From positions 1 through 64,000 of the forward strand of contig NW_024468266.1 of assembly GCF_002104995.1 (NCBI RefSeq): a DNA stretch of 64,000 bases. The letters are read 5' to 3'. The position numbers and the translations under genes were made by a program. This DNA comes from Linderina pennispora. Its lineage: Eukaryota > Kickxellomycota > Kickxellomycetes > Kickxellales > Kickxellaceae. The notes under the pieces are model-generated. The model had not been told where the DNA came from and did not search any database. It saw only the letters and a list, made by a program, of their open reading frames with translations. Shown here piece after piece: positions 45,027 to 61,544 of the stretch (positions are counted from its first letter, which is position 1; every line of letters begins with the position of its first letter).

Positions 45027-45620
45027 GTAGCCTGCACCGGCTGCCATGCGCTCAGACACCATCTAAACCCCTTCTATCTTTCTTGCTCCTCACCAGAATC
45101 AACATTTTTGAAGTACACAGCATTCTCCCATTTACCGGTTAGGAAATGTGTCCGCAAGTGACGTATCCTGCAGCATGCTGCCAAGGCCGCCTTTGGCTGC
45201 GGGCGCGCATTTTCCAGGCTGATTTTGCGTCCCCCACCACTGGTTGCGCCCGGCTTCTGGCCCGTCCCCTGCGACTCCCAGACACCTAGTCGCTATCCAG
45301 CGGGCAGTCGTCCATGCATCTCTACCCTCGCTGTTGGGTAGTGTAGTGGTCAGGTTTTGAGCTGGAAAAAAGCATGCACATGCGTCTTGCGGCCCCTTGA
45401 TTTCTGGCCGAAAAGGCCGGTGGGGGCTAAATTTACACCCTTGAACACGGTCGAGCACCATATACCGGAAAAGTGACAGACAGGAATGGCGCAGGTCATG
45501 GGGAAGGGCCTGCGGGAAACAAGCGAACAAAAAGCCTGGAGGGAGGGTGCACACCCCTCTTCTCCTTCGACTCGCACTACACTTTCCTTTCTCTTTTCGC
45601 CCACCCTATTTTTTAACAGC
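45027..45620. other. Intergenic between Rho copies A and B
   Basis: No gene seen; the final 80 bases are pyrimidine-rich and end in TTTAACAGC just before the ATG, which could also be an acceptor site of a 5'-UTR intron. Confidence 0.4.
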
Positions 45621-46241
45621 ATGGGAGACTACAACAAGAACATTCTCCAGCGCAAGGCCATCGTTATCGGCGACGGCGCGTGCGGCAAGACCTGCCTCTT
45701 GCATGTATTCCGAATGGGCAAGTTCCCCGAGGACGACCGGTACATCCCCACAGTATTCGACGCATGGGTGGCGGACATGGAGGTCAACAACCAGCCGGTC
45801 GAGCTGGCGCTCTGGGATACCGCTGGGCAGGAGGAATTCGACCGGCTGCGGTTCCTCTGCTACCCAGACGCATCAGTTGTGGTGATTTGCTTCAGCGTGG
45901 ACACGCCCGACTCGCTCGACAACGTGGAGGACAAGTGGTATGCCGAGTCGTCGGTGCAGGCCGCCGGCGCGCCCGTCATCCTGGTCGCGCTTAAGCTGGA
46001 TCTGCGCCATGATCAGCGCACCATTAACGAGCTGGCCAGGTACAGCCAGCACCCGGTCACTATGGCTGAGGGCCAGCGCATGGCCGAGAGGATTGGTGCT
46101 GTGGCCTACATTGAGTGCTCGTCGATTCAGAACCTCAACGTCAGGCAGGTGTTTGAGTTTGCCGCCCGGGCGGCTGTCGTGCCCAAGGGAAAGAGGCGGA
46201 TGGGCGACTCGGCCAGCTCCAACTGCTGCGTGATCCTGTAA
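45621..46241 (+). CDS. Rho-family GTPase, tandem copy B
   Basis: Second Rho-type GTPase. Met at 45621 (MGDYNKNILQRKAIVIGDG) is chosen because the upstream in-frame extension is pyrimidine-derived and not Rho-like. P-loop [11 protein letters not shown], switch I YIPTVFDAWVADM, switch [16 protein letters not shown]4 VALKLDLRHD, G5 ECSSIQNLN, CAAX CVIL preceded by a short basic patch (KGKRR). 206 residues, intact. Like copy A it has Trp where RhoA has Tyr42, with FDA in place of FEN. The three copies share strand and single-exon structure, consistent with tandem duplication and divergence. Confidence 0.92.
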   Translation: MGDYNKNILQRKAIVIGDGACGKTCLLHVFRMGKFPEDDRYIPTVFDAWVADMEVNNQPVELALWDTAGQEEFDRLRFLCYPDASVVVICFSVDTPDSLDNVEDKWYAESSVQAAGAPVILVALKLDLRHDQRTINELARYSQHPVTMAEGQRMAERIGAVAYIECSSIQNLNVRQVFEFAARAAVVPKGKRRMGDSASSNCCVIL

Positions 46242-46921
46242 GCCCCGTTGTCCTTTTGTTTATTTATTGTCTACATAATCGAAATGTTCCCCTTTCAATA
46301 ATACTGCGCGTCTATATTCGGAAAGCCCCGATTGGTGATACAAAGTACATGGGGGATCAAAGGGGCAGCCAGTCTCCACATACCGCATGTGTCTAATGGC
46401 CATGTACCATGGAGAACTGGCGTGGCATGTGCTGCCCGGCCCTAGTGTCCCCAGCTCATGCGCAGTACGGTGCTGGCAGAGGAAACCCAATAAGGCTGGG
46501 ACGCACAACACTCCCGGAAATTGCTCCCCACTCGCGGAGCAAGGAGAGGAAGGAAAATCCATGCTGCTGCTAAGCGTGCCAATCCACCGCCGTCCTCGCC
46601 CCGTTCCTCTTCTGCGCGCATTTTGCAGGCCGATTCGCCTTTCCCCCCATAGCGTCCATTTAATTTCCATAGGCGTGCTATGCGCTCACGGGCAACAACA
46701 ACAAAATAGCAGGTCGGTCCAGATAAACCTAGGGACAAAAAAGCGGTCTGCCAAATATGCACGCTGTAGGAAACAACAACAACTAGAAAAAAATTGACAG
46801 CGCTCGCCCCTTTTTTTACCTTCTCCAGTCTCTTTCAGCCCCGCCACATATTCTTGCTATTGATAACATAGTTTTTTATATTCACAACCCCATTTGTACT
46901 TTTTTCTTTCTTATCAGCATA
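46242..46921. other. Intergenic between Rho copies B and C
   Basis: No gene seen. AT- and pyrimidine-rich leader in the last 120 bases. Confidence 0.4.
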
Positions 46922-47538
46922 ATGGCTCCGAGACACGGCGCGCAGTCACTAAAGATGATTGTGGTTGGAGACGGCGCGTGCGGCAAGACATGCCTGTTGT
47001 ACACGTTCCGCGAAGGACAGTTCCCGCCCGACAACCGCTACATCCCGACAGTGTTTGACACGTGCGTGGTGGACATAAGAACGCAGGGGAAGCGCGTCGA
47101 GCTGTCGCTCTGGGACACGGCGGGGCAGGAGGAGTTTGACCGGCTGCGGCTGCTGTGCTACCCGGGCGTGGACGCGGTGATTATCTGCTTCAGCGTGGAC
47201 TCGCCGGACTCGCTCGAGAACGTCACCACCAAAGTGGTATGTCGAGGCATGCAAGCAGGCGCCCAGGGTGCCGATTGTCGTGGTGGCGCTCAAGGCCGAT
47301 TTGAAGACCGACCCCAGCATTGTCGCGCACCTGGCCAGGTACAAGCCAGACGCCCGTCACCTACGAGCAGGGGCGGGACACGGCCGCCAAGATTGGCGCC
47401 GCTGCCTTTGTCGAGTGCTCGTCGATTAGGAACCTCAATGTCAAGGAGGTGTTTGAGACCGCCGCCGCTGCTACGCTGGAGACCAAGGAGGTGGCCCCAC
47501 CAACCCCGGCTTCGGACGGGTGCTGCATTATCCTGTAG
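46922..47538 (+). CDS. Rho-family GTPase, tandem copy C (two indels)
   Basis: Third Rho-type GTPase. ATG at 46922; P-loop [11 protein letters not shown], switch [14 protein letters not shown], switch [15 protein letters not shown]. The frame then changes near 47235 (continuing as [17 protein letters not shown]) and returns near 47340 ([17 protein letters not shown]), with G5 ECSSIRNLN and CAAX CIIL. Both changes sit between conserved blocks, which suggests consensus errors. About 205 residues if joined. The position equivalent to RhoA Tyr42 is Cys here. Copies B and C share ECSSIxNLNV, so they are probably each other's closest relatives. Confidence 0.88.
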
Positions 47539-48350
47539 CCCGCTCGCCCGCAAAATCAGCAACGCTTGCAGCAAGCAATAGTCGCTTTTCTTAGCTCGTT
47601 CCCTCCTCGTTCCCTCCCTCGTTCCCTTCTCCCCCCATCGCTGGGCAGTCGTTTTCTAGATGCAAAAACAAATAACATTCTCCTCCTTCTCCATGATCTG
47701 TCCCTGGGACCGCCCAACAGGTCCTCTCCGGGTGTATTTTTAGAAAAGCCTGTCGGCCGTCTGGGTGAAGGGACAAGCTTGCACTGATGTACCTTGGCAC
47801 GGTGAGCCCTGTGGGGGGCTACTGCACCATAATTTCCGTGCATATGCCGCGGATCGCGCGCTTGGGCAGCGTTCCTGGGAAATCTCCTAAACCTCGAATG
47901 TTTCGGTCTCGACGCGCTCCATCATTGCTTGGCAATGACTTGAATAAGCTACTGCTCTCCGTTGCTTCTGCCCTTTATTTTCTTTCTTAAACCATCACCC
48001 ACTCACTCGCCTCTGTTTTATCCCGCTCCAGACAGTACCCTCCGCTGTTTGCAGCAGTACATTTCGCACCACACCCCCTCATTTGACTGGCCGTCTCACA
48101 TTTCAGTCGCAATTGTCCGCTGACGAGCAAAGACAGTACGGACATATACATATAAGCAGTGCTCTCCAGCAGGGACACCTGGGCTGACAACCAACGCTAG
48201 TATTCACTGTACACCACAAGGCACATCGACTCCACGCCCCTGTAAACACCCACCTTTTTCTGCATACGCATCACCCCTAGTCTCCCTCTCTCGCATACGC
48301 ATCATCCCTGCAACACCCCACTCCTCCCCATTCTCCCCGTATAGCATATC
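47539..48350. other. Intergenic before the ZIP transporter
   Basis: No gene seen. From about 48200 the sequence is C/T-rich with two near-copies of CTCGCATACGCATCA-like sequence in the leader. Confidence 0.4.
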
Positions 48351-49596
48351 ATGCAGGCAGTATTTCGGCTGGTGCTCGAGGGCCTGGCTATGTTTGCTGG
48401 CTCATGGGCGGCCGGCTGCATCCCGCTCTATGTGCGCATGGAGGCATCGCGGTTCAACATCATAGCACTGTTTGGCGCTGGACTCCTGATCGGAGCATCC
48501 CTGGCAGTGATCCTGCCCGAGGGAGTCGAGACGCTGATGCGTGCGCTCGACGCCAACAATGGGCAAGGGCAAGGGCGGCAGCCCAGACTCGCTGATTGAC
48601 ACAATCAACAACACGATCGGCTGGTCGCTGGTGGCCGGGTTCAGCATCATGTTCCTCATCGACAACGCATTCCCGTCGCACCACGCACATAGCGAGAGCG
48701 ACCACGACCAGTGCCCGACTGCGGCCCCGGCAAACGACAGCGCCGCATGCCTGGATCAGATCCAGCTGTCGGCGCGCGGGGCCAACTCGGAGTACACGCT
48801 GCACGATGCCGGGTTTAGAAGCCAGCAGCCGAACGATGCGCTGCCGTTTGTTGTTGGCGACGAGAGGCCGCGGCGCGTCGCCGCTTGACTCGGCGAGCCA
48901 CGACCGGAGCAGCCACGAGTGGGTCCGGCCTGGGTATGCGCAGCCCAGATGGCGCCGCATGGTCGGCCAGGTTGGATCGGCCCTGGCTCCTCCGGTCGCT
49001 GCCATCGACGCTAATTGGCATCCTGGTTCATTCGTGTGCCGACGGCCTGGCGCTTGGCGCAGCTGTGGCTGCGGCCTCGGCGGCAGTCCAGAAGAAGCCG
49101 GCGGTCGGAAGCCCCAGCGCTGTTGCAGCCGACGACCACACGTCGTCCTCTCGAGATCATTGTGTTCCTGGCTCTGCTGCTGCACAAGGCACCGGCGGCT
49201 TTTGGCCTCATCACGACACTGAAGCAGCAGGGGTATGCGCCGTACAAGCTCAGTGTTTGGCTGACGGTGTTTGCTGCATCGGCCCCGCTGGCTGCCCTGG
49301 TCACCTATGCCGTCTTCTCGATCTTTGCCAGCCCAGCCCCAGGCCACCACAGCGAGGCCCACCCGTGGACAGGCACAATCATGCTGTTCTCGGCAGGCAC
49401 CTTCATGTATGTGGCCATGGCACACACCCTGGCTGAGGCTATCCACCAGGCCAAGGCGCTGCGCGCGCGCGAGAAGGCTGCGCGCCAGGGCGGGTCAATG
49501 GCAAACGTCGTCGGATCGCTGAGCCTGGTCGACATTGTCGTGCTGCTGTTTGGCGTCATCCTGCCGCCGCTCGTGTCCAAGGACCATGACGACTAA
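48351..49596 (+). CDS. ZIP metal transporter, ZIP9/Atx2-like, with indels
   Basis: Membrane transporter for zinc or manganese into the cytosol, expected in the Golgi by similarity to SLC39A9 and yeast Atx2. ATG at 48351; TM1 AMFAGSWAAGCIPLYV, TM2 ALFGAGLLIGASLAVILPEGVE, a His-rich loop (SHHAHSESDHDQ), TM4 GILVHSCADGLALGAA with the HxxxDG metal site, TM5 LALLLHKAPAAFGL with HKxPA, and three further helices ending VVLLFGVILPPLV. Frame changes near 48560, 48885 and 49115, all between conserved blocks. Stop TAA at 49594-49596. The 3' end faces a small zinc-finger gene 77 nt away. Confidence 0.88.
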
Positions 49597-49673: not shown

Positions 49674-49928
49674 TTACAGGAGGGCGTTGGTGGGGTCGGG
49701 CAGCACATCCTTGGCAAAGGCGCTTACTGTATGCTCAACCTCGCTGTCGGAGCCGGCAGTGGAGGACGATCCTGCGCGCGGCCGCATGCGACGGTGCCGA
49801 GGCGAGTCGGGCTGGACCAGCTCCTTCCTGTCCTTGGAGTAGCTGTCCGGGGATGCGCAGGCAAAGAGGATGTGGTCGTAGTAGCTGTCGGCCGAGGACG
49901 CGACAAAGCTGCAGTTGGTGCACTCCAT
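49674..49928 (-). CDS. Small CxxC-x12-DH single-finger protein, member 1 (84 aa)
   Basis: Member of a small-protein family seen three times in this window. The N-terminus begins MECTNC followed by SFVASSADSYYDHILF, giving C-x2-C-x12-H, with a Cys five residues after the His as the possible fourth ligand. The rest is polar, with Arg/Ser-rich and acidic segments (RHRRMRPRAGSSSTAGSDSE). Single exon; the ATG is the only start before the first Cys. A TATA box lies about 170 nt upstream. Zinc binding is inferred from the ligand spacing. No known family recognised, although the spacing is close to a C2H2/C2HC finger. Confidence 0.7.
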   Translation of the reverse strand: MECTNCSFVASSADSYYDHILFACASPDSYSKDRKELVQPDSPRHRRMRPRAGSSSTAGSDSEVEHTVSAFAKDVLPDPTNALL

Positions 49929-50634
49929 AGCTTGTGGTGTTAATGTACAGAATTGATGAAAGGGGGATATAAAGAACTATGTGCTGTTTGTATGAGGTGG
50001 GAGGGAAGTCTTGGGCGATAAATGACGGTGTTTGCGGCAATGTGAAAAGGGGGCTGGAATATCCTTGACTCCGTCGCAGCCGGGCGATGGGGCCCTTGCC
50101 TATTTATATGAAAGCAAAACGAATTCGAAAATGAATAGAAAAAAAAAGCCTGATCGGTAACAGTCGCCCGCTGCAACCATCGATAGCCCATCGCTGCACA
50201 ACAAACACCAGGGCGTCACCAGTCCTGCCATTCGGCAGCTGATACAGCGCACCAGGCGCCCGTTTATTGGCCGACACTCGACATTGCATACCTGCCCCAT
50301 CGGTCGAAAAGGTCCGTCCACTGCTGGTGGACCTGGAGCAGCATGACTGGCAGATGACCTTGTGCCGTGTTTGCGTCCTTGGGGGCCACCACCTGCCTGA
50401 TTACCGAAGAACGCAACCCGCGCTGCTGGCCAAATAGATAAAGCTGCATGGAATGCGTGGGCGGGAGCTGACCTGTTCTCACGGCCAGTCGGCGTTGAGG
50501 AAACTGGTGGGCCAGTCATGCGCAAATCTCTGTTGGCTGTGTGCACCTGCCAAAAGCAGGCTCGCCAGCTCCGAGGCTCGCCAGCTCCCAAGTGCAACAG
50601 GCGCACCTGCCTCCCACTGAGCGGACCAATTAGT
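49929..50634. other. Upstream region of microprotein member 1
   Basis: Contains the TATA box at 50101-50108 (minus strand). No other gene seen. A tandem copy of a GCTCGCCAGCTCC-like segment lies at about 50560-50590. Confidence 0.45.
50101..50108 (-). promoter_or_regulatory. TATA box of microprotein member 1
   Basis: TATAAATA on the minus strand, about 170 nt before the ATG at 49928. Confidence 0.45.
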
Positions 50635-50968
50635 TTATTTGCCAGTTCTCCTGAAACTGCTATAGTCTGCTGATGATAGTGATAGCGCAGGAACTCCTGC
50701 AGATATGCCGCCCCCTTTGCACCTCATATCCGGCTCCCGGAGCACCTGCTTGAGTGGAACAGAAAGGCAGGACTCATCGTCGAGTGTCAAGCCACAGCCA
50801 GCGCAGAAGAACCCGCGCAGCTGCCGCCTGGCCGCTGCCGACTCCCTTGGCTGCATGAGTATCTGGCGGATCTGCTCTCTCTCGCTATCGCTCAAATCGA
50901 CTGGCTGTTGAATGAGCTCCTTGTGGTGCTTCTGGTGCAGCGGCGCTAATATCCAAGTGTGTGCTCAT
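50635..50968 (-). CDS. Small Cys-containing hypothetical protein
   Basis: No family recognised. From Met at 50968 (MSTHLDISAA) one indel near 50938 leads into HQKHHKELIQQPVDLSDSER, then a long open frame: helical EQIRQILMQPRESAAARR, a possible zinc-knuckle FFCAGCGLTLDDESC (C-x2-C...C) and further PDMRCKGGG. About 110 residues. The C-terminal end after KGGG may be disturbed by another indel. A TATAAAA on the minus strand at 51213-51219 lies about 250 nt upstream, supporting expression. It differs from the CxxC-x12-DH family. Confidence 0.5.
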
Positions 50969-51212
50969 GCTGGGCGCTATATGCTGGGCCAGTTCTTTCT
51001 TGTTGCCAGTAGAATATAGTGGCCGTTTTTAGACAGGTTTCAGATCCTTCCGGAGTGTAAGGCAGCTATGATGTAGAGAGAAGCGCAACAGAATGAGTGG
51101 AGTGATTCTTGATACCAGTGCTGTTGGAAGAAGAGAGGGAAAATTTTTCTTGTTGTTTTGCAATATCGCCGCGCTCTTGTCCCATCCCACGGCCCGGCGG
51201 CTTCTTGCTTGC

Positions 51213-51219
51213 TTTTATA
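51213..51219 (-). promoter_or_regulatory. TATA box (minus strand) of small Cys protein gene
   Basis: GGTATAAAAGCAAGCAAGA type element, nearly identical to that at 61182-61200. Confidence 0.5.
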
Positions 51220-51718
51220 CCGCAAAATGCTCCCTTCTCCATCCTGGCGCAGCGGCTATTTTTTTTTTTTGCTTCCCATGCCAGCGCAGCGGGTGACAGT
51301 GATTCGTCGCCACATGGCCAGCCGACCATCCCGCAAGCTGCATGTGTGCTTTCAAACCCCCATGCTCTCGGTCCAGCGCACACGCGCAGCTCGAACCGTG
51401 CTGCCAAGCGAATGCAGGTGGTGTTTTGGTAAAAGCTGCTAGATCCCGGTGGCTTGCTGCCCCTCCCTGCTGTTCTCACGTGGAGGTGGACCCGCAGGTT
51501 GTCCGCCCCCCGCAGTAGCTGTTGCTTGGTAACCGCCAAGCTAATGACAGGGCGATGAGCAAGTTGCCGGACAGATCTCGCTGATATAGCCCGCAACAAC
51601 CAAAAGACCAACTGGGGTGCGAGAATGGTGGGCGCTCAGCAAGCTATTGCAGGCTTCGTTGTGCAGGATATTTCCTCAGCTCCAATATAGACATACCGCC
51701 ACTAACGCCGTATGCCGC

Positions 51719-51728
51719 GGGGGGGGGG
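51719..51728. repeat. Homopolymer G10
   Basis: Run of ten G; similar G-runs occur at 20058-20067 and 9149-9157. Confidence 0.8.
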
Positions 51729-51799
51729 TGATGCACTAGTCTGCGGGGGGCTTCCCAGGCTGTCGATTTGACGTGATGCATTTGGCAGCATGATTGCCA

Positions 51800-51830
51800 A
51801 TGCAGTATTTGCTGGCTACAAATACTGCAT
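51800..51830. repeat. Perfect 12-bp inverted repeat, 7-nt loop
   Basis: Arm ATGCAGTATTTG (51800-51811) and its exact complement CAAATACTGCAT (51819-51830) flank CTGGCTA. A smaller repeat TGGCA...TGCCA lies just upstream. Confidence 0.9.
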
Positions 51831-52766
51831 CCGAGTTTAGAGGCTGCTGCTAAACCAGGTGCATATTCGGGCAGGACGCACCAAGTCCGAGGCAGATCAC
51901 CGCAGGGCTGCAGCGTTTTCCCATTTACGCGGACCGGGTGGAGAACATCGCGCGTAAAGGCATGCTACAGCGCTCTATCCTGAAACCGCTCTTTCAAAAG
52001 CTGGCGCATTCGCCTGGTGTGTGTGCATAAGGATGATGCGGTTGATTGAAACCGGTTGGACTGCGATGCCCATGTCGGGCTATCTGCGCCGAAGGTTCTT
52101 TTCAATATGCACTGTCTAAACAGAAACACGTCGTTGGGCAAGCACTTTGGTCAAGTATCCTCTGCCGCACTCCACAAATGGACATACTGCAAGCCCTCGC
52201 ACCCAGCTTCGTGAATAAACGGTCCCCAAAATGCAGCAACAGCGAGCCCTCATGAGAGGGTGCAGCGATCACCGCCTCTGCTGGCCGGCAACACGTCCAA
52301 GAGCAAAAAAACATTTAGCCAGAAGGCGGCATCATCACGACTGTTTGGCACCGGGTGAGCAAGAGGCAATCGCCCCTCTTGGGCTGTGCCGAGCCGTTTA
52401 AAGCGCAAGGAGCATCTATCCCCCGCTCGCATTTCCGTTTGTCTTGCATTCTATGGCGCGCATTGGCTGGCACCACGCACATCCTCCAATCGCCCATGCG
52501 CTCAACAGCTTCACAATTATACACTTGTAATTAATTAGCAAGCTGCGAGCGTGGTGGGACGATGCGCCCGCTACAAAAGGCAGCGGCTATGCTGCTGGTA
52601 ACTGAACTCTCCTTCCCCTCCCCTCACTGCCTCCACTTTGCCTTGTTTGTCTGGTACCTTCCTACCTTCCGTTTGTTCTGCATTTCTATAATTAAGCTTT
52701 TCCCGCACCTTTTACTACTTGTCCTTAATTTTTGATTTCTGTTTACTTGTACTCACCCGCCGGACC

Positions 52767-54903
52767 ATGTCGGACAAAGGCTCTGAATCCCAAGAGCTAA
52801 TGCACATCGAAAAGAATACTGCCGCTGCTGTGATGACCGAAGCATCTGTAGGCGACGACAGCTCGGAGCCAGCTTCTGAGCACCACGGTTAGCCAACTGT
52901 CCGGTGGCAAGGTGCTCACCCGCAAGGAGCTCTGGGCATGGTACATCTATGGCGCCGCGGTAAGTAATCCCTGGTGAGAAGTCCTAGCTGGCACTCTGGC
53001 ACCCTGTTTTCTGTGCATGGACTGCGGAAGCTGTTGGCATCCCTGTTTATTTCCCCTTTGTGCACATTGGCGTGTCCTGTTCCTGGTCGGGGGCACCTGT
53101 TTTGCTTTCACCAATGTTGTACGAGTTGCCAGAGAGCAGTACTTTGCTATGATCACCGACCAGGGACAATTTAGATCCTGGTGTCTGTATGGTGGATTTC
53201 CCTACGCTCTGTCGGCAGCCGCAGCCAGATATGGCCTTGCTTAGAAAAAAAGAATGCCCTCATGAGTGACAAAACAAGCGAGGCATGGTTTCCACATGTG
53301 AGTGCATAGACATATGCGGATCGACATACTGCATTCCTAAGACTTGTTTTCCGACACGGAGCTCACAGGCCAGATAGTGCTGTTAAATGTAGACTGAGCC
53401 GTTCAACACCAGCGTCATCGGCCTTTATATGTCGACAGCGCTGAATCTGATGGCTGCCATGGAGGGCTACGAGCTTGATCACACAACCAGATGTGACTAC
53501 GATGTGACCAACTACAAGTGCGACTTTTGGTGGGCTGGGGGCTGGATTGACACAGCCAGCTTCCCCCTGTACATGACAACCATCGCCAGTCTCCTCCAAG
53601 CATTGCTCTACATTGGCCTTGGAACACTCGCCGACCACTCAAACTACCGCAAGCGCTTCCTGCTGTCTCTTTGCTGTGCTCGGTGGTGCATCGTGTATCT
53701 GTCCTGTTGGGCGTTCGGCAGTCGTCCTTGATTGCTACTGCCGCTGCTCTATATATCCTGGCAAGCATCGGCTACGGCTGCTCGCTGGTCTTCTACTACG
53801 CCTACATCCCGCTTCCTGGCACGTGCCCACCCAAGAACCATCTACCGCAAGCTGACTGAGGCCTACAACGGACTAGCGATCCCCGAGTCGCTGGCCAAGA
53901 CAAAGCTGCTGAAGCAAAAGAAGGCTGACAAGGATGCGACACATAGCCCTGTTATCGTGGAAGAGTTTGTCACGAACAAACTCTCGGCACTGGGCAACCT
54001 GTGGATGAACCTAGCTGCCATCATCGTGCTTGGCATCGGTGTTGCGGTGCTGTCGGTGATGGAGGACCAGATGTATGCCATGATGATTGGCAGCGCTGTA
54101 GTTGGTCTGTGGTGGCTCCTGTTCACTGTATATCCAGTGCTCCAACTGCAGGAGCGCCCTGGTCCCGCCGCTCCCTGCCGGCACCAACAAATGGATGTTC
54201 CCGCTAAAGTCATTCAAGCAGACGTGCCTGGATGTGTGGAAGCTGCCCGAGACACTCAAGTTCCTGGTTGGCTGGTTCATGCTGGCCGATTCAATGAACA
54301 CGAATCATGACTGTTACTAGCTTGTTTGCGCAGTCGGTGATCAACATGGATGAGACGTCGCTGGCAATTGGCGTGCTGATCGCACCGATTACCTCGATGA
54401 TCGGTGCATTTGGGTTCTCGCTACTGCAGGAACGGTTCAACTACCGGACACGCACGCTCATTCTTGTCGTTATCTTCATGAGCTCTCTGCTGGGCATCTA
54501 TGTTATTATCGGATTTGGCACGACTGCCTGGGGATTCAACCACTCGGCCGAGTTCTATCCACTTGTCGCATACTTTGGAATAATCAATGGTGCGTCGATT
54601 GCACTGACACGTGCCCAGTTTGTCGAGCTGTGCCCGCCTGGCATGGAGGCAGAGTTCTTCTCGCTGTTCCGCATCACCGACAAGGGGTCGGCGTTCATCG
54701 GACCGCTGGTTGCTGCTGGGATCAACACCGCCTCGCACAACCTGCGCTACGCCTACGTGTGGTGCTTTGCGCTGTTTTTCGTCTCTGGTGTGTTCTTCTT
54801 CTGGTGCAACCCTAAGAAGGGGCGCGAGGAGGCAATCGAGCTGGGCCGGCAAAACGGCTTCAGTGAGGAGAATCTGGGTGCCAAGCCCAAGGCGTTCTTG
54901 TAG
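52767..54903 (+). CDS. Atg22-like vacuolar transporter (major facilitator fold), with indels
   Basis: Multispanning protein of the Atg22 family, which exports amino acids from the vacuole after autophagy. ATG at 52767 begins a hydrophilic N-terminus (MSDKGSESQELMHIEKNT). The signature KELWAWYIYGAA/TEPFNT spans an intron at 52960-53392 (433 nt, GTAAGT...TAG, phase 0). Helices follow: WWAGGWIDTASFPLYMTTIA, MNLAAIIVLGIGVAVLSV, LAIGVLIAPITSMIGAFGF, YPLVAYFGIINGASIALTRA, and FSLFRITDKGSAFIGPL to the end AKPKAFL. Frame changes near 52885, 53680, 53850, 54160 and 54300. A damaged second copy lies directly downstream. Substrate is inferred from the family. Confidence 0.85.
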
Positions 54904-55382
54904 AGACTACTCCCCCCCAAACATTTCACCTTGTTACCACTAGTTTTAAGCACACTGTTGCGCCCCTACCAGGCCTGCCTACTGGGCGCTGCCAGGGCTG
55001 TTTCCTGAGTTATAAAAAACATGCGGGTCTTGGGTTTCCTAACACAGCTGCCGACTATCTTTTGTATGTGGCGAGCTGTAACCCCAGCGGGTGGTCCAGG
55101 CCGATGTCAAACCTGACTGGCACCCAAATGCAATGGTCCATCATTGGTCTGCTCCAGACCGTCCGAATCATGGCCGCGGAATGCACTTGCGAGATCCATA
55201 CAGGACTGACGCCTTGTAAGCCAGTCTGAAGCTATGGACTGCATATTTCCCAGTTTAAAGTAACTTTTCCATCCAAAGTAAAATGCAGCACTGTCCGATT
55301 TCGCTTCCTTGTTCAATTTGGCATTTTTCATCCCTTAGAACTACAATCTTTATTTGCAAAAGGTCTCTTTCTCAGCAGCCCC
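54904..55382. other. Spacer between Atg22-like gene and its relic
   Basis: No gene seen and no counterpart of the first exon of the intact copy. Confidence 0.4.
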
Positions 55383-56955
55383 TGGCCTTGCATCTATGGC
55401 ATTGCGACAGAGCCGTTCAACACTACCATTGCTGGTTTGTACATGTCGACAGCACCGAGCTTATTGGCGGCCATGGAGGGCTGCAAGCTGGATCACATAA
55501 CCCTGTGTGACTACAATGCAGCCAACTACACGCGCGACTACAGGTGGACCGGGAGATGGGTAGACACCACCAGCTTTCCGCTGTACATGGCCACCATCGC
55601 CAACCTGATCCAAGCCATTTCTGTACATTGCGCTGGGCACAATTGCCGAATCTCTTAAGTAATCGCAAACGCATGTCGCTGGCCTTTGTCCGGACTCAGC
55701 GGCGCGTCCATGCATCTGCTTGCTGAGAGTCACAAAATCATCAGTGACTAGACACTGCTGCTGTTCTATATATCCTGGCAGGTATTTGCTACAGGCTGCT
55801 CGCTGGTATTCTACTATGTCTACATTCCACTACTGGATGGGTGCCCACCCGGGGGCTATCTACCGCAAGCTCACTAACTCATACAGTGCCACTGCGGCAC
55901 CCTTACACTTGACAAGGACAAGGTTGTTGAAGCCCCCAAAATGGTCGAGCACGATGCACACCACCCAGCGCCAATCGTTGAGGAGTTTGTCACAAACAAA
56001 ATATCGGCGCTCGGCAACCTGTAGACTAAGTCCAGTAGCCATTATCGCAGTTGGTATTGGCATTGGCATTCTATCGGCCATGGGTGACAACCAGCTGTAT
56101 ACCATGATGATTGGCACCGCCATCGTTGGCATCCTTGGTGGTGCCTGTTCACCAGTATATCCAATGTCTCGAACTCAAGGAGCGTCCCAGGTCCGCCGCT
56201 CCCTGCCGGCATCCAACAGGTGGCTGTTCCCGCTAAAGTCGTTCAATCAGACGTGCCTGGGATGTAGCGGAAGCTGCCCTGAAGCATTCAAGCTCCTTGT
56301 TCGGCTGGTTCATGGTGGCTGATTCGATGAACATGATCATGACTGTCGCCAGCCTGTTTGCACAAGCCGTGATCAACATGGACAAAGACCAGATGGCAAT
56401 CGGTATTCTGATTGTCCCAATTACCCCGATGATCGGTGCATTCGGGTTCTGGATGGTGCAGGAAAGGGCTTTAACTACCGGACACGCACCCTAGCCTTGG
56501 TGGTGGTTGGCATGTACGTAGTGCTCAGGTGCCTATCGTGATGATTATATTTGGCACTGCCGCCTGGGGACTCAACTACTCGACCGAGTTCTATCCACTT
56601 GTCGCATACTTTTGGAATAATCAACGGTGCCTCGATTGCACTGGACACGTGCCCAGTTTGTCGAGCTGTGCCCGACCTGGCATGGAGGCAGAGTTCTTCT
56701 CGCTGTTCCGCATCACCGACAAGGGGTCGGCGTTCATCGGACCGCTGGCTTGCTGCTGGGATCAACACCGCCTCGCACAACCTGCGCTACGCCTACGTGC
56801 GGTGCCTGTCGCTGCTGTTCCTGTCAGGTGTGCTCTTCCATTGGTGCAACACAAAGAAGGGCCGTGAAGATGTGCCCAAGATGAGCACGCTTTCTGGTGT
56901 GACCAGGCGACGATCCTGCTGGGAAACCAAAGGCGTTCTTGTCATCGAAAAATAG
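55383..56955 (+). pseudogene. Decayed, 5'-truncated tandem copy of the Atg22-like gene
   Basis: Similarity begins at YGIATEPFNTTIAGLYMST, which is the exon junction of the neighbour but with no intron between the two halves. It continues through TAPSLLAAMEGCKLDH, WVDTTSFPLYMATIANLIQA and further blocks to FSLFRITDKGSAFIGPL and a tail ending FLSSKN-like. The first 60 codons of the intact copy have no counterpart. There are at least eight frame changes, and the codon matching TGG in GNLWMN is TAG (near 56023), a substitution and not an indel. The block 56645-56800 is almost identical to 54606-54760, while the 5' part is much more diverged. Probably non-functional. Confidence 0.75.
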
Positions 56956-58132
56956 ATCTTCCAAATTGAATAGAAATTTGAAAGTCCGAATCTCGCTTAT
57001 GCGTGTGTCTGCACCAGGAACATCAGTCTTGACACCATTCTATGCACCCAATTAGATCTGTCGATGTACGGCATCATGCCCGGGCCATGCAGCCTCGGAA
57101 CGGAGGTTTTCCACACACCAAAAACTTTCCCATCAGGCAGGCATCGCTGATAAGGGATTATATGGCGGATAGCATGTGCCATGGGCGATAGATAAGGTGT
57201 TCTCCGCCCCGACTCAACAATGCACAGCAGCAAGCTGGATGGCGTTGCTCAAATCACATGGCGGAGGTGCGCTGGGCGAAGCCTCCCACATGATGGCAAG
57301 CACCGTCATTGTATTGGCATACAGCGCCCTTCATTTTTCAGAAACACAGGCCAGCTATTGCCAAGGAGGAGGTGGGAGGAGGTGGCAGGTGCAGATCCTT
57401 TTTTCGTGTGGAGGATGGGCCACAAACGTGCTTTGACATTTGAAACCCCGGCCCGAAGCAGGATCCATTTTCTTCTTAGGGACGTGCGATTGTCGGAAGG
57501 AGCTGCTGCATGCGCGATGTGCGGACCATTCGGAACATAGCCGTACACGAGTGGTTTTTTGGGTCAGTCGCGAAGCTTTTTCAAATGCGAGCGAGGGGCG
57601 GCGCTGCAGGAGGCCAATTACACTGCGATCTTCGGCAAAAGCTGGGTTATAAATAGGTGCTTTTATGTGGCCGTGCCATACCATGGAAGGACCCACCTCG
57701 GTCTGTCTCCCAGATACATGTTGACGATCCGCCATGTGTTTGTTTTGACCAGCAAAGGGTGTGGGGTGCTGGCCAGCTTTGTGATTACGTAGCAAACAGG
57801 GAGAGAGCCTGCTGGCCTCAGATGACACGAAAGGGGGCTCTGAGAAAACCACCTGTGGCCTTCATCTACGCACATCCCCCTGGCCACACAAGGTTTGCAT
57901 CCGCCACATGAATGGCACCACCTAGGCGGGATTTTTATCTGTCAACAGGAAAATCCTTGCAGGCGTTGTTTACGATTTCGGCATTCCCCGGCATGAGAAA
58001 AAGCTCCAGGGTACATAAGGCAGGGCTGGTGGCGAACAGGAAGCATGCTCCCCACTCTTCCCCTTCCCCTCTACGCTTTTATATAGCACCATTTTAGGCA
58101 TCTTACATATTTTAGCCACACTTTCATACACC
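56956..58132. other. Intergenic region upstream of microprotein member 2 (1.18 kb)
   Basis: No gene recognised. A TTATAAATA at about 57643 on the plus strand has no evident downstream gene other than the microprotein nearly 500 nt away. TATATA at 58080-58085 lies nearer. Confidence 0.4.
58080..58085 (+). promoter_or_regulatory. TATA-like element of microprotein member 2
   Basis: TATATA about 50 nt before the ATG; this is close for a TATA box, so it may instead be in the leader. Confidence 0.35.
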
Positions 58133-58312
58133 ATGAAGTGCAAAACCTGCGAGTTCGAGTGTGCCTCTGCCGACCTCTACTTTGACCACCTCCTGTTTGA
58201 CGCCCGTCACCACGAGATCCTCCAGCAGCGGATGGAAGAGCTGGAAAAACACGAGTCGACATACATGCGGCCGGCCAAGGCATACAAGCGCGCTAGCCTG
58301 GTTATTATCTAG
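58133..58312 (+). CDS. Small CxxC-x12-DH single-finger protein, member 2 (59 aa)
   Basis: Short gene found by reading for the family motif. It begins MKCKTCEFECASADLYFDHL and continues LFDARHHEILQQ, giving C-x2-C-x12-H-x6-H-H. A charged helix (RMEELEKHEST) and a basic C-terminus (RPAKAYKRASLVII) complete it. ATG directly precedes the first Cys as in the other two members; stop TAG at 58310-58312. The polypyrimidine leader (TCTTCCCCTTCCCCTC) and TATA-like sequence upstream support transcription. Function unknown; a small zinc-binding regulator or adaptor is conceivable. Confidence 0.68.
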   Translation: MKCKTCEFECASADLYFDHLLFDARHHEILQQRMEELEKHESTYMRPAKAYKRASLVII

Positions 58313-58796
58313 CTCCATCCAGTGCCCTTTGTGTATATGACATCCAACCCCTCGCAAAAAAACCACCTCTCATGTGTCTCTTCACCCTTTCATCTGTACA
58401 ATCATCATCCAGCTCCCTTCCGGCTCCCTTTACCCAATTGTATACCTTCACTGACACTATCCACTGATATCAAGAACTACTTCTTTTTTTCTTTTAAAAA
58501 AACAAATCAGCATCTTTCACCACCAACATCCTGACTTCTTTTTGACTGGAGTCGCAGGGAGAAGGCAAAACAAAAACACTGATCACGCGCCTGCCATCCT
58601 GCATGTACTGACACCTGCTTTCAAAAATGACGTGTCCGACGAATTAAACATGTTTGTTCTGCAAGCCATTGTGCATGCCACGCGCATGCCTTTGTGCATT
58701 GGGCATACCAGTAGTGGAGGTGTGTATGCGCATTTCAGATATATGGCAAAAATTGGAAGGCGATGAGGGGCAAACCAACCAAAAGCAGAAGATAGT
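58313..58796. other. Intergenic between convergent genes
   Basis: No gene seen; pyrimidine-rich with A runs. Confidence 0.4.
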
Positions 58797-59427
58797 CTAG
58801 CAATAGCCTTCGCCGTAGTACGCCTGCTCCGGCTTGCTTGTGTCCGAGTCCGATCCAAAGTCCTGGGTCCACTTTCCGTTGACATTCGACACGCCCATAT
58901 ACGTGACGTTCGGATCAACGATATTCTCGTAATGCGGCGGGTCTTTCATCCACATATCAAACACCTCCTTGGCGCTTGCAGCGGGCGCATCAGCAATGTT
59001 TTCAGGCAGCTGCTGCAAAGTTGAAGCCGTTGTTGCGCAGTCGCTCGCCGACGGGGCCGTAGTTCTCATCGCTGTGGGTCATCTCGCCAACGCGTGCCTG
59101 GTACAGCGAGTGCTCGTGGGCGGCCTGCGTGACAGCCGGGTGCAGGGCAAGCGCGTTGAGGCCGACGCGCCGGCGCTCCTTGTTCACAAGGCAGAGGATT
59201 TCGCGCTCGTAGTCGGCACCAGCACTGCCGTGGTGCGAGGGAGTGTCGTGGGAGGCTTCGGGACGCCCCTGCGAGTTGCCTGCTCGGTGTGTCTTGGATC
59301 GCCATACAGAACATACTTGATTACCTGGGTGAGGTGGTCCCGGCGGGCCAGCCGCAAGGGGTGCCGCCTCACTTGAAAGCGCCATTAGAGTAGCTACTGA
59401 GGCACTAGCCAAGATTGAGAGCTTCAT
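58797..59427 (-). CDS. Secreted CAP-superfamily (SCP/PR-1) protein
   Basis: Extracellular protein of the CAP family (yeast Pry-like; lipid or sterol binding in characterised members). Met at 59427 begins a signal peptide (MKLSILASASVATLMALSSEA). A Pro/His/Ser-rich segment follows, then the CAP domain: ILCLVNKERRRVGLNALALH, AHEHSLYQARVGEMTHSDEN, NNGFNF and after one indel near 59015 ENIADAPAASAKEVFDMW, MGVSNVNGKWTQDFGS. The THSD...ENIA pair corresponds to the CAP cavity motifs. A 45-nt GT...AG segment near 59305 is in frame and may be an intron. About 205 residues. TATAAA on the minus strand at 59571-59576 lies about 145 nt upstream. Confidence 0.85.
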
Positions 59428-59570
59428 AATACTTCAATACGGGATACCGTCAAAGCAGAAGGAGAAGGGAGGGGAGGGGATATGCGAGGATGGTGAGGAG
59501 TAGCTACGAAAATAGTGCAAGGGAATAGATAAATCTATTTCCAAAAGAAACAAAAGAGGGAGTGGGATGG

Positions 59571-59576
59571 TTTATA
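59571..59576 (-). promoter_or_regulatory. TATA box of CAP gene
   Basis: CATATAAA on the minus strand, about 145 nt before the ATG at 59427. Confidence 0.4.
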
Positions 59577-61183
59577 TGGACAGGAGGGAGACGTAGGTGT
59601 TTGTCGATGTCTTGAAGGCCCGAAGAGGGAGGATGGCTTCAAATGTAGTGCGAAAAAGAGGGAGGGGAGGAAAGTAATATTTTCATTTTGTAATGCTGGG
59701 TCATATAAGGACCGCCAGCAAGACACAAACTGGCCACGGCCAATTCCTGGAAGGCAAATAAACGAGGGATTTGGATAGTCGTGGCGGAGCAGCAGTCTTG
59801 TTGGCTTTTAGATGATACAATATGAGATGTGCACAATAGAGAATATCTTGTCTGGATACATCGATTATGTGCACAGAACAAACGGACCATGCGTCGGCGC
59901 CAAAAGAGGGAACATATTGAGCAGTCCCAGTCTGGCCTGGCTGCGGGCATAAGCAAAGTCAAGGCATGGCGTTGGCTTGTATTTGGTAACTGTCTGCGCT
60001 GGATGTATGTTGAAAAATGGTCATTTTTCCAAGCGTGGCCTACAGTGTAGATGTGTGGGGACAGCAAGGCTTCTGCCGCCTCCGAGCAACGTTGTTGTGC
60101 AGTAGCGCCGCACAGGTGTCGTCATGGCGGGAGCTCGGGCAGCGGCCAGCAGTAAAGCGAGCCAGGCGCCGTGCCAAAGCATGGAAAGAAAAAAGTAGGG
60201 ACCAGCCGCCTTGGAGAGCGACATTCGCCGGTCTGGGAAGGACTTGCAGAGCAGCGTATTGGACGCCACAGCCGGGCGCAATTTCCGCCACAGCCCAGGC
60301 GCTGTGATTCGATCGGCTCAGCCCTCGCTTCAGTTTTTTGGGGACCAAGGAGCCAGTCGGAGCACGACTGCACTGCGATGGGTCTACTAGGAATTAAAGG
60401 CGCTCCGAGCCCACCACTCGGCCTCGCACTGCTGCAGCTGCACGATAGCCGCGCAGCAGGAGCCTGAAAGCAAAGGCAAGACTGGTCCAGTAACACGTGA
60501 ACGCGGGGCCAATGCTGGCAAAAGAATTCCCGGAAGGGGAATTAGCAGCGAATCGCCGCCCGCCATCGCGGTCCTGGCTGCAGGTGGCTTTTGGCGCGGC
60601 GGGTGCATAATGTGATCGTGTATCGGGGACATGAGCATGCGGCCCAGACCAGGAAAAAACGCTCGGGACGGCGAATATGCATTGGATTTCAGATGTCAGC
60701 ACGTAGCAGGTGCGTGTGGGGCAGGTGAAAAGGAAAATATCCTGCCAGTGCGCCAACTAGAAGCCGCATATTTTTGCAGCCTGGGACGGTGCTTTCTGCA
60801 TTTGGCCAGATGGACTTCAGAAAAAGAGACAGCATGGGATTTTGGCGGGCGGAGGATTGCGCACCCGTGGCCCACCAAAAGGGCTTATCAAGAGTGGGGG
60901 CAAAGTGTCAAACGGGAAACGTGGGATCGACTGTTTGTCCTGGGAATAATAATGCCGTACGCTTGTAGGCGCGGACCAGTGGTTGGGGGAGCGAGGCGCC
61001 AGCAGTCCTGGTAGGTGTGTGGGCAGCACTTCAAGCAACACGGGCCAATTGCGCGCTCCGGTATGCCCTTTTTCTGGCTCCTTGGGCATGGCATCTGAAA
61101 GACGCGTAGGAAAGGGGGCGGGGTTAATATGCGGTCTGCCCTTCCGGCTTTCCACGAGGGCTGGCCTCCTTTGGGCGCTTTGG

Positions 61184-61190
61184 TATAAAA
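61184..61190 (+). promoter_or_regulatory. TATA box of microprotein member 3
   Basis: GGTATAAAAGCCAGCCAGA, about 115 nt before the ATG. Same extended form as at 51213 on the other strand. Confidence 0.55.
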
Positions 61191-61301
61191 GCCAGCCAGA
61201 GCGATCTCTGCGGCGAAAGAGCGCCCACCCTTTTGTCCCCTTTCCGCCGCATTCTCTGCTGACTTTTGTCTTTCGATATCTTCACAAACTTTTCCACAAA
61301 A

Positions 61302-61544
61302 ATGATCAAGTGCGAGTGCTGTGGATTCGAGTGCGACTGTATGGATCTCTACTACGACCATATCATGTTCGACAACCGCCACCACCTGCTGGCGCAGAAC
61401 GAGCTGTACAATACAAAGAAGAAGCGCAGGTCCGCTTACAGGTCCGCCTATAGCTCGCGCAACTCGAGCACCAGCACCAGCAGCGTGCAGGCCGAGAACG
61501 CCATCAGCGCCAGCCACAGCTACCTGAACGCCGAGGTCTACTAG
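61302..61544 (+). CDS. Small CxxC-x12-DH single-finger protein, member 3 (80 aa)
   Basis: Third member of the family: MIKCECCGFECDCMDLYYDH, then IMFDNRHHLLAQNELYN, again C-x2-C-x12-H-x6-H-H, with two extra Cys (positions 6 and 13) that could alter metal binding. The C-terminal half is a basic, then Ser/Tyr-rich low-complexity tail (KKKRRSAYRSAYSSRNSS...). ATG at 61302 in an AAAA context, one residue before the start position of the other members. Clear TATA box and pyrimidine-rich leader upstream. Intact; stop TAG at 61542-61544. It is most similar to member 2 in the DNRHH/DARHH block. Confidence 0.72.
   Translation: MIKCECCGFECDCMDLYYDHIMFDNRHHLLAQNELYNTKKKRRSAYRSAYSSRNSSTSTSSVQAENAISASHSYLNAEVY

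Follow-up and report, generated by a model that had tools for sequence, protein, structure and literature searches.

Three short genes of one family lie within 12 kb of a 64,000-nucleotide stretch of DNA from the soil fungus Linderina pennispora, which we refer to as the window. We call them gamma, beta and alpha, in the order in which they occur. Their positions, their finger segments and the TATA-like boxes upstream of them are as follows.

49674..49928, minus strand: gamma gene, 84 aa, apparently a diverged copy; intact ORF, finger C3-x2-C6-x12-H19-x4-C24
49857..49922, minus strand: gamma finger, residues 3-24, from the translation
50102..50108, minus strand: TATA-like box TATAAAT of gamma, with the ATG 180 bases further on
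58080..58085, plus strand: TATA-like box TATATA of beta, with the ATG 53 bases further on
58133..58312, plus strand: beta gene, 59 aa; intact ORF, finger C3-x2-C6-x12-H19-x6-H26, tail ending in KRASLVII
58139..58210, plus strand: beta finger, residues 3-26, from the translation and the fold prediction
58286..58300, plus strand: K-R-A-S-L of beta, residues 52-56, a basophilic-kinase-like site
61184..61190, plus strand: TATA-like box TATAAAA of alpha, with the ATG 118 bases further on
61302..61544, plus strand: alpha gene, 80 aa; intact ORF, finger C4-x2-C7-x12-H20-x6-H27, Ser-rich basic tail with a C-terminal Tyr
61311..61382, plus strand: alpha finger, residues 4-27 (first Cys codon to last His codon), from the translation and the fold prediction

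The three ORFs described in the initial annotation are free of stops at the claimed coordinates and lengths. Its proposal that they are single-exon genes also holds in Linderina, because the annotated L. pennispora proteins (EC988_000027, EC988_000031 and EC988_000033) have the same lengths as the ORFs. The annotated proteins correspond to ours almost letter for letter; they differ at four residues, all in the tails, of which alpha has two and beta and gamma have one apiece. GC3 is 0.82 in gamma, 0.77 in beta and 0.89 in alpha, and five ORF stretches of the window taken as a reference give 0.64-0.88. Short, single-exon ORFs of this kind can arise by chance or be non-coding, but here the coding-like GC3, the conservation across four genera, the annotation in other assemblies and the absence of the shared motif from random windows (see below) contradict that explanation, and we consider its probability negligible.

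The three proteins share an N-terminal motif, as had been claimed, and six-frame translation of the window recovers it in gamma, beta and alpha. The pattern M-x(0-3)-C-x2-C-x-[FY]-x5-D-x-[YF]-[YF]-D-H-[IL]-[LM]-F occurs three times in the six-frame window and in none of 100 windows generated by a first-order Markov model. On its own, the loose pattern C-x2-C-x12-H has 10 occurrences in the window, where 8.9 are expected. Because this loose pattern occurs near expectation, the part of the motif that is not due to chance is the part beyond it. The spacing of the one putative metal site is as proposed in the initial annotation, with C-x2-C-x12-H-x6-H in alpha and beta and C-x2-C-x12-H-x4-C in gamma. 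C2H2-type ligands fall in the range C-x2-4-C-x12-H-x3-6-H or -C, with x6 at the edge of what is usual. The last ligand can change: His27 (alpha numbering) is Cys in the orthologue P0036, and gamma has Ser at 27 and a Cys at x4 instead.

The Linderina proteins belong to a real family, known to date only from the Kickxellales. Protein searches with the profiles A1, A2 and A3 gave 23, 22 and 33 listed matches, together 34 distinct proteins, and all 34 among the matches listed come from Coemansia, Kickxella, Martensiomyces or Linderina, genera of the Kickxellales. The homologues in close relatives on which the initial annotation had made its claim depend are thus present in four genera, and the family is apparently undescribed, with no Pfam model covering it among the 33 aligned proteins, P0017 and delta. 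A literature search found no paper on this single-finger family. The protein searches see only proteins whose length is 0.55 to 1.75 times that of the query and which share 5-residue words with it, and the second is bounded by its candidate list as well; for this reason, absence outside the Kickxellales stays unproven.

The count of three members in 12 kb is correct for the window but not for the genome of L. pennispora (26.17 Mb in 222 contigs), where we found a fourth paralogue on another contig.

G000:C157:1323008-1323241, minus strand: delta, fourth paralogue, C-x2-C-x12-H-x6-H

We read the start of delta as the second Met of a 92-aa ORF. Its matches to the other members are individually weak (E 0.004 to 0.09), and we place it in the family because of the shared motif.

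The genomic arrangement of the family may be old. Alpha and beta are 3.0 kb apart in the window. The alpha and beta records of Coemansia reversa carry the tags 82262 and 82264, both on a contig of 322,458 bases, and both Martensiomyces records are on a contig of 148,861 bases; we take each pair to lie on one contig because the contig sizes are equal. From these records, the alpha and beta orthologue groups look linked in three genera, and they could represent an old linked pair of the Kickxellales. Gamma, found only in L. pennispora among the matches listed in the protein searches, would be a copy that diverged locally, with delta as a distant paralogue. One explanation built on this history is that the genes are lineage-specific linked duplicates serving a trait of the order, for example spore or merosporangium formation, with a biochemistry like the one we favor below or a different one. 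The confinement of all listed matches to Kickxellales genera and the apparently kept linkage are consistent with such a role, but the confinement rests on searches bounded by length and shared words, and we regard this explanation as improbable.

The surroundings of the genes are not gene-poor as a general statement, since neighboring genes lie near gamma and between beta and alpha. Plus-strand ORFs with weak matches to ZIP transporters converge on gamma, and the gap to the end of the gamma ORF is 77 bases. Further neighbors are as follows; we claim no shared function for any of the neighbors.

54307-54903: ATG22 match; a shorter one at 56541-56867
Between beta and alpha, minus strand: CAP-domain gene
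Beyond alpha, minus strand: Ufd2 U-box gene

In each of the window's three proteins the finger begins at a Cys in position 3 or 4, which, judged by eye, seems to leave no room for a signal peptide.

The finger is far better conserved than the tail. We stacked 34 rows on D-x-[YF]-[YF]-D-H: 30 matches from the protein searches (P0004-P0006 and P0017 were left out), the three window proteins and delta. The alpha group has 24 rows, including the window's own, and the beta group has 8. In alpha, pairwise identity averages 0.79 over the core and 0.35 over the aligned tail; in beta, the averages are 0.83 and 0.47. D15, Y17, Y18, D19 and H20 make up the stacking anchor D-x-[YF]-[YF]-D-H, a pattern that every one of the 34 rows contains. 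Outside the anchor, C7 is present in all 32 rows that reach it and C4 in 28 of 30, F23 is in every row, D24 is in 33, and H27 is in 32, with Cys in one more. Cys11 is found in 31 of the 34 rows; the exceptions are P0037 (Cys-9 and Tyr-11, the pair exchanged), gamma (Phe and Ala at 9 and 11) and delta (Arg and Met). This variation at 9 and 11 fits a residue 11 that belongs to the hydrophobic core of a C2H2-like fold and is not required as a ligand, which only partly accounts for the strong preference for Cys. The aromatic residue of P0037 is shifted from two to four residues past the second Cys, and C2H2 fingers carry an aromatic at one or the other of these places.

The predicted structure is also C2H2-like. 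AlphaFold2, run with the 33 aligned rows, gives alpha two strands (residues 2-3 and 10-11) and a helix (14-23) in a beta-beta-alpha arrangement. Mean pLDDT for alpha is 86 over residues 1-10, 91 over 11-20 and 65 overall (pTM 0.36); for beta, the values are 81, 86 and 73 (pTM 0.40). At E <= 10, Foldseek returned 6 matches with alpha and 17 with beta, and none of them was significant. Among them are fingers of ZNF750 and ZNF406, U1/U11 snRNP chains and Dbf4, all of which we take to be C2H2 or U1-type fingers; the list also has DNA polymerase chains and further large proteins. In a Pfam scan of the 33 aligned proteins, P0017 and delta, no C2H2 model reached its cut-off, in keeping with the view that the motif belongs to no existing Pfam C2H2 family. 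The nearest approach was that of delta to zf-met (PF12874), with a sub-threshold 16.3 of 21.2 bits (E 0.012). Delta was also sub-threshold to zf-C2H2_9 and zf-C2H2_4, with all of its matches within residues 1-25, and the only other protein for which a C2H2 model appeared was P0033 (zf-C2H2_ZN142, 13.1 of 27 bits). Scores of the alpha and beta profiles against fingers of their own genome lay inside the range obtained with permuted columns and the ligands kept, which counts against kinship with C2H2 fingers. Because both the spacing and the predicted fold are C2H2-like, the family is probably a variant that has diverged within a known fold and not a new kind of finger.

The family differs from each known class of finger that it resembles. 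The zf-met or U1-type C2H2 fingers (PF12874; U1C, Dbf4) are alike in C-x2-C-x12-H and in the predicted beta-beta-alpha fold. The last spacing is H-x5-H in U1-type fingers and x3-5 in classical C2H2 fingers, whereas alpha, beta and delta have H-x6-H, on which ground we rejected U1-type or zf-met membership; the aromatic at +2, the acidic helix and the single finger are further differences. Fingers of the FOG/U-shaped type, which bind proteins, have C-x2-C-x12-H-x4-C, and gamma resembles them in spacing; protein binding is also the role that we propose here. However, FOG proteins are large and multi-fingered, whereas the proteins here are small and have one finger.

Classical C2H2 proteins have tandem fingers and read DNA bases through helix positions -1, 2, 3 and 6. 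In our family these positions, numbered backwards from the first zinc-binding His, hold Cys or Ser in 34 of 34 rows, Asp in 34, Leu in 32 and Asp in 34; together with the single finger, this led us to reject a classical DNA reader. Still, single-finger proteins with basic flanks can bind DNA or RNA, and a regulator in which the finger and the basic tail together contact nucleic acid would be consistent with the C2H2-like spacing and predicted fold, the weak U1 and U11 snRNP chain matches, and the tails, of which all but one of the 34 have a net charge (K+R minus D+E) of +1 to +9. The finger itself argues against it: the core has a net charge of -2 to -5 in all 34 rows, the base-reading positions are filled as above, and the window's three proteins lack a second finger. 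We consider such a regulator unlikely. The acidic finger and the residues at the base-reading positions argue instead for docking on protein.

A high content of Cys in alpha could indicate a metal buffer or a thiol redox sensor, in which the alpha head would bind zinc or Cu(I) or form a disulfide switch. The L. pennispora alpha head reads C-x-C-C-x3-C-x-C; five Cys precede His20 in 14 of the 24 alpha rows (three others are 5'-partial), and the frequency of Cys11 and the convergence of gamma on an ORF that weakly matches ZIP transporters point the same way. But of the 23 alpha rows that extend to Cys6, 7 have Ser or Gly in its place, the beta finger has three Cys in 6 of 8 rows (the P0020 model has four and P0034 is partial), and delta has two. 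In addition, the upstream kilobases of the three genes contain no exact Zap1-like element, and the conserved acidic, aromatic helix would need another reason. This role seems to us rather improbable. Metallothionein-like proteins have Cys-x-Cys clusters along most of their length; we rejected this class, with Cys clusters confined to alpha heads and so few Cys in the beta finger.

The tails, which the initial annotation described as unrelated, have common endings when orthologues are compared. All eight beta rows contain K-R-x-S-[LIMF], with the Ser fifth to seventh from the C-terminal end, a site similar to the one preferred by PKA-type kinases. Alpha rows end in Tyr or Phe in 21 of 24 cases, and 17 of 24 contain [RK]-x(0-2)-S-S-[LM]. 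Of the 34 tails, 18 have the pattern [RK][RK]-x-S-[LIVMF], whereas 1000 shuffles gave 1.7 on average and never more than 7; the looser R-x2-S is near expectation (28 against 21.8 by shuffling, 34 tails). Because the sequences are related and hence not independent of one another, the excess of the stricter pattern indicates conservation and not selection for phosphorylation.

Based on these results, we favor a reading in which the family consists of small proteins with a C2H2-like putative zinc finger that docks on a protein partner and a tail that is regulated by a kinase, and we put its chances at about even. The proteins would be intracellular, with one N-terminal finger followed by a short tail of little structure. 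About 25 residues would fold as beta-beta-alpha around a zinc ion bound by two Cys and two His (in gamma, Cys replaces the last His). The helix, whose acidic and aromatic residues are invariant (D-x-[YF]-[YF]-D-H-x2-F), would dock on the partner and not on DNA, and the basophilic-kinase-like site in the tail (K-R-x-S-hydrophobic in beta and R-x-S-S-L-like in many alpha proteins) might switch or tune docking.

The Magnaporthe effector AVR-Pii offers a lead for the docking surface. AVR-Pii is described as a ZiF protein with zinc ligands C-x2-C-x12-H-x-C, closest to LIM fingers, and its Exo70 interface includes Tyr64, Phe65 and Asn66, immediately before the zinc ligand His67 (PMC9618136). Its zinc motif is reported to be required for stability and target binding (PMC11213319). 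AVR-Pii is like our family in being a small fungal single-finger protein with C-x2-C-x12-H, and the Tyr-[Tyr/Phe]-Asp-His edge of our family occupies an equal place relative to the zinc His. The aromatics before the zinc His are Tyr in 33 rows and Phe in 1 at -3, and Tyr in 25 and Phe in 9 at -2, a resemblance of residues only, these positions being part of the stacking anchor. When profile A3 was compared with solved structures, AVR-Pii was the second of two matches, neither significant (E 1.6). AVR-Pii is secreted, whereas the window's proteins have no visible signal peptide, and we rejected ZiF membership as defined in PMC9618136, with Met, Leu, Ile or Thr two residues past the His in all 34 rows. 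Because the last ligand differs and the fold may differ, we treat AVR-Pii as a lead and not as a relative. By analogy, the family might be a non-secreted counterpart of the zinc-finger Exo70 ligands, in which the Tyr-[Tyr/Phe]-Asp-His edge docks on the fungus's own Exo70 under the control of tail phosphorylation. An Exo70 gene is present in Linderina, but we think this version very unlikely; if it were true, the Kickxellales would own a private exocytosis switch.

The family described here is small in protein size, strongly conserved and outside Pfam coverage, in an order on which, to our knowledge, there has been little functional work. The finger, some 25 residues long, keeps its acidic and aromatic face constant from genus to genus while the tail diverges, which makes it well suited to a search for a partner protein. 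If the docking reading is true, the family would provide a minimal, possibly kinase-controlled protein-binding finger. If it is wrong, the family would still be a marker for the order.

The fourth member of the single-finger family, delta, lies 1.3 Mb into contig C157 of the same genome (minus strand; L003:1406-1642), and its tail is without the basophilic kinase-like site (K-R-x-S-hydrophobic in beta tails, R-x-S-S-L-like in many alpha tails). A search of the L. pennispora genome with zf-met (PF12874) gave paired matches of equal score, each pair made up of one long and one short contig (C13/C199, C1/C103 and C146/C220), as if some regions were present twice in the assembly.

Other genes in the window, around the family genes alpha, beta and gamma, are as follows.

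45477-47581, plus: two adjacent Rho-type small GTPase genes (by eye, ORF list)
48351-49596, plus: ZIP zinc transporter-like ORF pieces (weak model matches)
53017-54903 and 55283-56867, plus: two adjacent ATG22-like transporter genes (ATG22 matches and by eye)
58797-59427, minus: CAP-domain (PR-1-like) protein, between beta and alpha (Pfam)

The Rho-type genes resemble each other in sequence by eye. Matches to the ATG22 model cover 54307-54903 and 56541-56867, the remainder of both genes being assigned by eye; the second gene, which appears broken, could be a duplicate undergoing decay. The CAP-domain protein is encoded by two overlapping ORFs, one above the Pfam cut-off and the other slightly below it, and the gene is likely spliced. 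The ZIP-like pieces, whose end is 77 bases from gamma, match the ZIP model with E values of 2e-5 and 0.0016, each below the model cut-off, and are probably a single spliced gene.
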